Source: a gamma proteobacterium SCGC AAA076-P13 (GTDB taxonomy: Bacteria; Pseudomonadota; Gammaproteobacteria; Magnimaribacterales; D2472). Taken from it: a DNA stretch of 64,000 bases. This document shows positions 22,979 through 25,950 of the stretch, piece after piece (within the stretch, counting starts at the first letter, position 1; each line of letters begins with the position of its first letter). A program made the position numbers and the translations under genes. The notes under the pieces were generated by a model, which did no database searches, was not told where the DNA came from, and worked only from the letters and a program-made list of their open reading frames with translations. The stretch covers positions 1 through 64,000 of the forward strand of contig ARRA01000003.1 in NCBI GenBank assembly GCA_000384935.1, given 5' to 3'.

Positions 22979-24901
22979 TTACTTATCTTCTTCTTTTACT
23001 TCTTCATACTCAGCATCAACTGTATTTTGATCAGCATCTTCTTGAGCATTATTGACCTCTTCTCCGCCTTCTGCAGAATCGGCATCTTGTGCATAAAGCT
23101 TTTGAGTTAATGGTGTAAGAACATCATTAAGATTTTTAGTTGCAGATTCTATCGATTCAGTATTTTCTGATGCTATTGCTTCCTCTAAACTAACTACAGA
23201 TGCCTCAACCTGCGATTTTTCTTCATCAGATAATTTATCTCCTGATTCATCTATAGTTTTACGAGTTGCATGAACTAACATGTCTGCATTATTTTTTGTC
23301 TTAACCAACTCTTCAAATTTTTTATCATCTTCAGCGTTAGCTTCGGCATCTTTAACCATATTTTCTATATCTTCATCAGAAAGCCCGCTTGATGCTTTAA
23401 TAACAATAGATTGTTCTTTGCCTGTATTTTTATCTTTTGCTGAAACATTCAAAATGCCGTTAGCATCTAAATCAAAAGAGACTTCAATTTGAGGAGTACC
23501 TCTTCCAGCTGGTGGAATATCAGTAAGATTGAATTGTCCAAGTGATTTATTCTGAGATGCTTGTGTTCTTTCACCCTGAATTACATGAACAGTTACTGCT
23601 GTTTGATTATCTTCAGCAGTTGAGAAAACTTGTGATTTCTGAGTTGGAATAGTTGTATTTTTTTCAATAACAGGAGTTGAAACTCCACCTAGGGTTTCAA
23701 TTCCCAAAGTTAAAGGAGTAACATCAAGCAACAAGACATCAGTCGTGTCTCCTGATAAAACTGAACCTTGAATAGCTGCCCCAACTGCAACTGCTTCATC
23801 TGGATTTAGATCTTTTCTAGGTTCTTTTCCAAAAAATTCAGATACTTTCTTTTGAACTAAAGGCATTCTTGTCTGCCCTCCAACCAGTAAAATTTCTGAG
23901 ATATCTGCATTTGCTAGTTTGGCATCTTTTAATGCTAATTTGAGAGGCTCTAAACTTTTATCAACTAAATCTTCAACTAAGGACTCGAGTTTTGCTCTGG
24001 TTATTTTATGAACAAAATGCTTTGGTCCTGAGCTATCGGCTGTAATATATGGCAAATTGACTTCCGTTTGTTCTGATGAAGATAGTTCAATTTTAGCTTT
24101 TTCTGCTGCCTCTTTTAGCCTTTGTAATGCAAGTGGATCACTCTTTAAATCAAAACCAGATTCGTCTTTAAACTGCTCAACAAAATAATCTATAAGTCTT
24201 AAATCGAAATCCTCTCCTCCTAAGAAAGTATCACCATTTGTAGATAGCACCTCAAATTGATGCTCTCCATCAACATCAGAAATTTCAATTATTGATATAT
24301 CAAAAGTTCCGCCACCTAAGTCATACACCGCAACAGTTGAATCTCCTTTATGCTTATCTAGACCATATGCTAGGGCAGCTGCTGTTGGCTCATTTATAAT
24401 TCTTTTAACATCAAGACCTGCTATTTTTCCAGCATCTTTGGTTGCTTGTCTTTGAGAGTCGTTAAAGTAAGCTGGTACTGTAATTACAGCCTCTTTTACC
24501 TCATGCCCTAAATAGTCTTCTGCAGTTTTTTTCATTTTCTTAAGAATTTCTGCAGCTACCTGAGGTGGAGCTAATTTTTTATTTGCAGCCTCAACCCATG
24601 CGTCACCATTATCAGCTTTGATAATTTTATAAGGGACCATGTCAGCATCTTTACTAACCACTTTGTCGTCGAAAGTCCTGCCAATTAATCTTTTAATTGC
24701 GTAAAGAGTATTTTCTGGATTAGTGACAGCCTGCCTTTTAGCTGGCATTCCTACTAGCACCTCATCATTATCTGTATAAGCAATAACAGATGGAGTTGTT
24801 CTGCCACCCTCCGCATTCTCTATAACTTTTTGTTGTTGTCCTTCAATAACAGCTACACAGCTGTTAGTTGTTCCTAAATCAATTCCTATTATTTTTGACA
24901 T
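22979..24901 (-). CDS. dnaK: chaperone DnaK (Hsp70)
   Basis: ATP-dependent chaperone. 640 residues (E. coli 638). [15 protein letters not shown] starts the actin-like ATPase domain; [33 protein letters not shown] and [11 protein letters not shown] are its other signatures. The substrate-binding domain follows [14 protein letters not shown], and an acidic C-terminal tail ends in EEVKEEDK, close to the EEVKDKK end of other DnaKs. It lies 11 nt after grpE. Confidence 0.99.
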
Positions 24902-24912
24902 TTATCTTTCCT

Positions 24913-25467
24913 CTAATTTTTAATAACTGTAACTCTGGCTGGTCTTACTACTCTTGTGTGCAGCTCCCAACCTCTCTGAAATACGTTTCCAATCGCACCA
25001 TTTTCTTTGTCCTTATCTTGCTCCATGGTTACCGCTTCGTGCTTTTCCGGGTTAAATTCTTCATTAACAGGATAGATGGGTATCATTCCAAATTTATCAA
25101 GGGCAGATTCAAAAGACTTTAGCGTAAGCTCTATACCTTCTTTTTCCTCTGGAGCTCCAGATGAAAGGTTATTTAAGGCATGTTCTAAACTATCTATTAC
25201 AGGCAATAACTCAACAAGTAATTTTTCTACACCATACTTATGAGCTTTTTCGACCTCAGATAGAGTTCTCTTTAGAGCATTATCTAAATCTGCATTAGCG
25301 CGAAGTATGGATTTCTCTAATTCTTCTTTTTTATCAAGAAGTTCTTCATACGAAAGAGTTCCAATATCATCAGTTGATTCACTGTCTTTTACTTCAACTT
25401 CAACTTCTTCATTTACTAGATTGTCAGAATCTACATTTGTAGCTTTTGATTTTTTCTGTTTTGCCAT
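24913..25467 (-). CDS. grpE: nucleotide exchange factor GrpE
   Basis: Releases ADP from DnaK. 184 residues. A charged disordered N terminus is followed by a long helix (SYEELLDKKEELEKSILRA), which dimerises as a coiled coil. The beta domain contains GMIPIYPVNEEFNPEKHEAVT and GNVFQRGWELHTRVVRPARVTV, both conserved. It is the first gene of the heat-shock operon; a near-consensus sigma-32 promoter lies 23-50 nt upstream. Confidence 0.97.
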   Translation of the reverse strand: MAKQKKSKATNVDSDNLVNEEVEVEVKDSESTDDIGTLSYEELLDKKEELEKSILRANADLDNALKRTLSEVEKAHKYGVEKLLVELLPVIDSLEHALNNLSSGAPEEKEGIELTLKSFESALDKFGMIPIYPVNEEFNPEKHEAVTMEQDKDKENGAIGNVFQRGWELHTRVVRPARVTVIKN

Positions 25468-25471
25468 AATT

Positions 25472-25501
25472 AAATCCCGTTTGAATCATATATTGGGATT
25501 T
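25472..25501 (-). promoter_or_regulatory. inverted repeat spanning the grpE -10 box and ribosome-binding region
   Basis: AAATCCC and GGGATTT are perfect 7-bp arms separated by 16 nt. In the grpE mRNA sense, the upstream arm coincides with the sigma-32 -10 box and the downstream arm with the only purine-rich stretch before the ATG. RNA started at the sigma-32 site would lack the upstream arm; read-through RNA from fur would contain both. Confidence 0.55.
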
Positions 25502-25517
25502 AAATTTTCAGTTCAAG
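25490..25517 (-). promoter_or_regulatory. sigma-32 (RpoH) type promoter of grpE-dnaK-dnaJ
   Basis: In the minus-strand direction CTTGAAC (25511-25517) is followed by 13 nt and CCCAATAT (25490-25497). This fits the known RpoH consensus, CTTGAAA then 13-14 nt then CCCCATnT, with one difference in each box. The spacing and the heat-shock operon downstream make it convincing. Transcription would start near 25483, giving a leader of about 16 nt before the grpE ATG. Confidence 0.85.
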
Positions 25518-25526
25518 GGCTGAACT
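25510..25526. repeat. short palindrome AGTTCA-N5-TGAACT over the grpE -35 box
   Basis: Perfect 6-bp arms around AGGGC, directly after the fur stop and overlapping the -35 of the sigma-32 promoter. It could be a weak 3' hairpin for fur mRNA or a protein-binding site. There is no T-run that would make it a standard terminator. Confidence 0.4.
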
Positions 25527-25530
25527 AAAT

Positions 25531-25950
25531 TTAAGATTCTATTTTTCTTACGTGCAGAACCATGCTGTGATCAACCAACTCATAACCTTTTCTTTTAGCA
25601 ATGTCGTGTTGAAGTTGCTCTAATTCCTTGTCATGAAATTCGAGAACCTTTCCAGTATCAACATCTACCATATGGTCATGATGTTCATCTGAGTTAATTT
25701 CATAAACAGCTTTACTGTTCTCAAAATGATGTTTTGTTACCATTCCAGCAGCCTCAAATTGAGTTAAAACTCTGTAAATGGTTGCCAGTCCAATATCTTC
25801 ATTTTGTGAGATCAGCTCTCTGTATATATCTTCAGCGCTAAAATGAGCTTCTTCTTGAAGTGCGGTTGATGCCAAAACTTCCATTATTTTAATTCGAGGT
25901 AAAGTCGCCTTTAGCCCAGCTTTTTTTAGTTCTTCAGTTTGATTAGCCAT
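25531..25950 (-). CDS. fur: ferric uptake regulator Fur, cysteine-free
   Basis: Fe(II)-dependent repressor of iron uptake. 139 residues. The winged-helix part includes GLKATLPRIKIMEVL, HFSAEDIYREL and GLATIYRVLTQFEAAGMV. The HHF, DEHHDHMVDVDTGKVLEF and VDHSMVLHV segments hold His/Asp/Glu metal ligands. The structural-zinc cysteines of E. coli Fur (CLDC) are replaced (DVDT), and the whole protein contains no cysteine. The Pseudomonas type also lacks the full CxxC. It is divergent from bamE as in Pseudomonas (omlA-fur). I could not see a clear Fur box in front of it. Confidence 0.96.
   Translation of the reverse strand: MANQTEELKKAGLKATLPRIKIMEVLASTALQEEAHFSAEDIYRELISQNEDIGLATIYRVLTQFEAAGMVTKHHFENSKAVYEINSDEHHDHMVDVDTGKVLEFHDKELEQLQHDIAKRKGYELVDHSMVLHVRKIES

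Follow-up and report, generated by a model that had tools for sequence, protein, structure and literature searches.

The -10 box of a sigma-32 promoter as a candidate translational insulator between fur and grpE in a SAR86 family

In one family of the SAR86 cluster, the gap between fur and grpE carries a sigma-32 promoter whose -10 box and spacer are complementary to the Shine-Dalgarno (SD) stretch of grpE, and the two complementary arms vary by clade yet remain complementary. The best explanation of this arrangement, and one to which we give somewhat better than even chances, is that the -10 box and spacer of the promoter serve as a translational insulator over the grpE SD. The promoter would lie so near grpE that the leader holds just the SD and the start codon; the heat-shock polymerase, starting just past the -10 box, would then produce a tiny leader with an accessible SD, whereas a polymerase arriving from fur would copy the promoter as well and turn the -10 box and spacer into the anti-SD strand of its RNA. 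Read-through mRNA would thus support poor translation of grpE, the heat-shock mRNA, devoid of the upstream arm, would be translated, and under this model probably only the latter yields good grpE translation. The half of the mechanism that concerns the heat-shock mRNA rests on standard sigma-32 geometry, and the half that concerns the long form on folding and comparison.

Results

The window, by which we mean the whole stretch of 64,000 nucleotides analysed (contig ARRA01000003.1), belongs to a host of the SAR86 cluster with a genome of 1.3 Mb; the named genomes closest to it in GTDB are from SAR86. On its minus strand, to which all features below belong, the order is fur, a gap of 63 nt, grpE and then dnaK. 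The fur gene (25531..25950; Pfam PF01475, E 4.8e-40) encodes a Fur family regulator of 139 aa, ends with the stop codon TAA at 25533-25531 and would be the source of the read-through mRNA that reaches grpE. The grpE gene (24913..25467; Pfam PF01025, E 6.3e-42) encodes 184 aa from an ATG at 25467, and the next gene of the operon, dnaK (22979..24901, assigned from its open reading frame), has a strong SD of its own, AGAGGAAAG, as found in SAR86 dnaK leaders. The promoter between fur and grpE consists of a -35 box, CTTGAAC (25511..25517), which is kept as CTTGAA(C/G) across the family of the window (f1), and a -10 box, CCCAATAT (25490..25497); the resulting string CTTGAAC-N13-CCCAATAT fits the pattern CTTGAA - 13 to 14 nt - CCCNAT and has a single occurrence in the genome, which also encodes RpoH (TIGR02392 match at G000:C5:37605-38408, E 5.8e-116). 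Transcription from sigma-32 promoters starts a few bases downstream of the -10 box. With this geometry, i.e. 6-9 nt past the box, the heat-shock mRNA is predicted to have its 5' end at 25481..25484, and the grpE leader offers no SD-like stretch other than GGGA (25478-25475).

A first-pass annotation of the window had pointed to a perfect repeat formed by AAATCCC (25501-25495) and GGGATTT (25478-25472) with 16 nt between the arms, and had identified the downstream arm as the only SD-like stretch of grpE. The latter statement holds, GGGA being the sole candidate, and the repeat is present where it was placed, although its true length is 9 bp and not 7: the upstream arm, TTAAATCCC (25495..25503), made up of spacer and -10 box, forms nine perfect pairs with the downstream arm, GGGATTTAA (25470..25478), which begins with the GGGA core, so that the repeat sets the -10 box and spacer opposite the sole SD stretch of grpE and the CCC of the -10 box belongs to the upstream hairpin arm in read-through RNA. 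Folding also agrees with the two transcript forms that had been proposed, since a read-through RNA of 106 nt is predicted to adopt the -10/SD hairpin (-19.7 kcal/mol, z -2.8) and the predicted 5' end of the promoter mRNA leaves out the upstream arm. The window contains six perfect repeats of 9 bp (loop 3-25, at least three G-C pairs) as against 4.5 +- 3.9 in Markov resamples, and the repeat alone is therefore unremarkable; the evidence for the hairpin is comparative, in that the place and the conservation are remarkable and the repeat itself is common.

A second hairpin, TTTAGTTCA-GCCCT-TGAACTGAA (25507..25529), is predicted over the -35 box in read-through RNA. Comparison by eye places it mostly in genus g1, where it seems to be retained despite a change of the -35 box from CTTGAAC to CTTGAAG (G013, G015), and finds it absent from most other genera.

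GrpE was searched for in 203 genomes of the order, and the sequence upstream of its gene was examined at 137 loci. In f1, which comprises ten genera, each of the 85 loci with an inspected intergenic region has retained fur, followed by the sigma-32 promoter and grpE, so that the promoter recognized by the first-pass annotation in one genome recurs in every intergenic region of the family examined; rpoH itself was found in 200 of the 203 genomes of the order. The predicted grpE leader in f1 measures 12-21 nt, and the -10 box takes the forms CCCAATA, CCCTATA, CCTCATA, CCTTATA and CCCCATA among relatives. In two sister families, f2 (L171-L188) and f4 (L139-L157), grpE overlaps fur or starts at most 17 nt from its stop codon (spacing -65 to +17 nt, as computed from automatically picked start codons), and there is no sigma-32 promoter between the two genes. 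We had anticipated a loss of rpoH in these families, wrongly, as the gene is present, and when sigma-32 promoters were sought ahead of fur, only doubtful candidates turned up, in g12. The arrangement in f2 and f4 makes co-transcription of fur and grpE plausible in this order.

In family f3 (L158-L190), grpE often has a TTG start preceded by a strong GGAG SD, and stretches of the spacer that are rich in U could pair with AAGGAG, a pairing for which the statistics give no support. Hairpins in g15-g21 that look analogous by eye gave weak or null results in the tests, and we therefore make no claim for f3. At one locus (L069, G101) grpE is interrupted by a stop codon or frameshift and the match to fur is partial, possibly owing to a sequencing error in the assembly.

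The predicted cost of opening the SD, calculated at 20 C with 45 nt of coding sequence included, averages 9.0 kcal/mol in the read-through mRNA of f1 loci versus 2.7 kcal/mol in the sigma-32 mRNA. The mean difference, long minus short form, is thus 6.3 kcal/mol, and it exceeds 1 kcal/mol in 68 of the 71 distinct loci. Within the window, grpE has the costliest SD opening among the 27 genes with an SD-like core (9.6 kcal/mol versus a mean of 3.6). The contention that the ribosome site is free in the short mRNA fits the family mean better than it fits the window genome, in whose own short mRNA opening costs 5.6 kcal/mol, or 3.2 with less coding sequence, because weak pairing into the coding region leaves the SD partly paired; as modelled there, 'free' is a relative term only.

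Loci outside SAR86 behave differently. At 29 gammaproteobacterial loci where grpE has a sigma-32 promoter, the median leader length is 56 nt, and the SD opening cost differs between long and short forms by a mean of 0.3 kcal/mol, with no locus above 4. The gene before grpE in other gammaproteobacteria was identified by Pfam as hrcA in all three loci tested (L235, L236, L241). Many of the loci outside SAR86 (L224-L263) have a -35 CTTGAA that overlaps the last codons of the upstream gene, a position held by fur in SAR86. The leader contains GGG in 69% of f1 grpE genes versus 3% of SAR86 dnaK genes, 0% of f3 grpE genes and 16% of the genes of the window, and by these sequences the grpE SD of f1 appears to have shifted from GGAG towards forms that contain GGG.

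The strict sigma-32 pattern matched mainly the fur-grpE site in six genomes of the family, and other heat-shock genes therefore served as controls. The promoter of groES is diverged, its leaders are about 60 nt long and its -10 box does not overlap the SD; its full upstream context raises the cost of SD opening in some genomes (6.9 versus 1.0 kcal/mol in G000), which makes it a weaker control than the 29 grpE loci. Matches to TIGR03346 (ClpB) were half-length, below the cut-off and probably ClpA, and were left out.

The strongest of the rival explanations, which we judge possible but rather unlikely, is that the pairing is an unselected by-product without any regulatory role, since a -10 box with CCC and a purine-rich SD (GGG/GGA), when 10-20 nt apart, would pair in any longer transcript. 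When both promoter boxes were kept and the rest was shuffled, the mean opening cost of the long form already reached 6.9 kcal/mol versus 9.0 for the native sequences, so that a large share of the cost comes from a CCC box near a GG-rich SD. Shuffling of the spacer alone was significant in just 19 of 71 f1 loci (3.6 expected), mostly in g1 and g9, and genera g2, g10 and some g5 loci have little or no excess pairing; foreign arms, too, pair with an average of -7.4 kcal/mol.

Against a by-product speaks the way in which the arms differ between clades: the positions flanking CCC and GGG vary on both arms. The pair AAATCCC/GGGATTT of g1 and much of g9 is replaced by ATATCCC/GGGATAT in part of g9, TCCTCATA/TATGAGGA in g4, TCCCTA/TAGGGA in g3, CCCAATA/TATTGGG in g6 and part of g5, CCCTAT/ATAGGG in a g5 subclade and CCCATA/TATGGG in G106. 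In the remainder of g7 (L127-L131), the arm ACCCTA, accompanied by CTCC, is a spacer sequence that precedes the -10 box TCCATATA and covers UAGGGUGGAG; box and arm are thus separate, and pairing in this genus falls outside what a CCC in the -10 box would bring about. A GGG-containing SD, moreover, arose in f1 only. The first-pass annotation had staked its proposal on the arms being present and covarying in relatives, and the hairpin indeed persists with changed arms.

Statistical tests of this complementarity carry different weight. Native arm pairs have a mean of -9.44 kcal/mol versus -7.63 +- 0.23 with randomly dealt leaders, a value reached in 0 of 5000 deals; shuffles of partners within a genus gave 0/5000 in g9 and 36/5000 in g5, and permutation of whole genera as blocks gave 472/20000. 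With the SD core kept and the remaining leader shuffled, a Wilcoxon test at the level of genera gave p 0.005. Twenty-nine sequences that share one register have 84.3% of their cells paired versus 80.3 +- 1.4 in shuffles (2/500) and a covariation of 0.174 versus 0.131 (5/500), the latter carried by columns 18-46 (AU 17, UA 6), 16-48 (UA 21, AU 4) and 20-44 (UA 22, UG 5), and every slid register pairs worse. A test on edge-disjoint tree pairs respects relatedness: it yields a mean arm interaction of -1.07 kcal/mol with a sign-flip p of 0.0035 under the loosest pairing rule, p 0.11-0.18 under stricter ones and 0.17 in a plain sign test. Marginal results of this kind speak for a by-product, and since the tree-aware p ranges from 0.0035 to 0.18 with the pairing rule, coevolution of the arms is suggestive, not proven; arm covariation is significant by permutation but only suggestive once phylogeny is controlled. 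The complementarity itself is shown by the comparison, whereas selection for it as an insulator is inferred.

The remaining explanations fare much worse. That the hairpin chiefly acts on fur mRNA, weakly terminating it or stabilizing its 3' end, with the overlap of the SD being secondary, would suit the hairpin's position directly past the fur stop and the second hairpin over the -35 box in g1; we consider it very improbable, because the stem has three G-C pairs, a long loop and, in the window genome, no U run, and the grpE SD is consistently at the centre of the pairing. A search for an intrinsic terminator, a G+C-rich hairpin with a U run behind it, found none. Scarcely any probability, slightly less again, falls to a DNA operator at which a repressor would bind the inverted repeat over the -10 box as HrcA does on CIRCE, an idea invited by the overlap of a heat-shock promoter with an inverted repeat and by the presence of hrcA directly upstream of grpE in other gammaproteobacteria. 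In f1 the loop varies from 6 to 20 nt, the end of the arm lies 0-10 nt from that of the -10 box, sequence and register are variable, and G-U replaces a Watson-Crick pair in 26 of 589 pairs, a substitution that a DNA-binding dimer could not tolerate; variable loops and arm positions together with G-U pairs are as expected for RNA rather than for a protein-binding DNA dyad, and a CIRCE or HrcA-type dyad of fixed spacing and fixed sequence was looked for in the f1 loci and not found. Equally remote is an RNA thermometer, in which melting of a hairpin that does cover the SD of a heat-shock gene would add heat induction, as the first-pass annotation had also suggested: the mean opening cost falls just from 9.0 kcal/mol at 20 C to 7.2 at 37 C (short form 1.6 at 37 C), so that heat hardly opens the long form and the SD is still paired in silico in read-through RNA at 37 C, the sigma-32 mRNA has no upstream arm to melt, and an Rfam search gave no thermometer or other match at E up to 1.

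Discussion

The logic that we propose for the fur-grpE insulator has a close precedent, of which the first-pass annotation was unaware. In phage T4, the early and middle read-through mRNAs of gene e (lysozyme) and of I-TevI form a hairpin that hides the SD, while a late promoter that occupies the hairpin's upstream strand gives rise to an mRNA that lacks the hairpin and is translated (PMC3014915, PMC2988022). By analogy the SAR86 arrangement would work like the gene e system, the logic being known and the setting new: the longer SAR86 transcript is likewise predicted to fold a helix over the SD, and, given the start site that we infer, the promoter likewise lies in the upstream strand, the -10 box (25497-25490) overlapping the arm (25503-25495). 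The T4 case, however, involves a phage late promoter and has been demonstrated experimentally, whereas the SAR86 case involves a chromosomal sigma-32 promoter and is predicted from sequence and evolution; in SAR86, unlike T4, the -10 box itself is part of the anti-SD strand and the arm sequences differ by clade.

Other systems are more distant. In IS10/Tn10 and IS50, RNA started outside the element folds over the ribosome site of the transposase, unlike the RNA made from the promoter of the element itself; this protects a mobile element without an alternative sigma factor, whereas the SAR86 hairpin would insulate two chromosomal genes from one another. Yersinia yopN resembles SAR86 grpE in being bacterial and in having two forms of transcript and a hairpin at the SD, but the hairpin is present in both its long and its short mRNA, acts as a thermometer and does not select between promoter forms (PMC8612567). 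The hrcA-grpE loci of other gammaproteobacteria resemble the SAR86 locus in that a sigma-32 promoter close behind a co-directional gene drives grpE, and differ from it in their long leader, their mostly GGAG-type SD and the lack of a difference in SD opening between long and short forms. In the literature searched, mostly without subscription papers, there was no report of such an arrangement for grpE, for sigma-32 genes or for SAR86.

The reach of the proposed insulation is narrower than the whole chaperone operon to which it had first been ascribed. The grpE SD is predicted to be hidden in read-through mRNA, but dnaK is preceded by a strong SD of its own, and the direct effect is therefore confined to grpE; translation of dnaK from the read-through mRNA would continue unless polarity intervenes. 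For the family as a whole we see about even chances that a sigma -10 box doubles as the anti-SD strand of a selected insulator, which would bring the logic of T4 gene e into a chromosomal heat-shock operon. Such an insulator would have arisen where the promoter lay very close to grpE behind fur, would have been kept for long with changing arms, and would have given way to genes that overlap or abut in the promoterless sister families.

If the fur-grpE insulator is real, one stretch of 30 nt starts one mRNA and silences the translation of another. Complementarity between -10 box and SD would then be worth seeking at alternative-sigma promoters with very short leaders, and the approximately 70 natural variants of the arm pair constitute a ready test set. 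In compact genomes, where promoters are packed between co-transcribed genes, the arrangement would allow genes that are 50-70 nt apart to stay independently controlled without a terminator.
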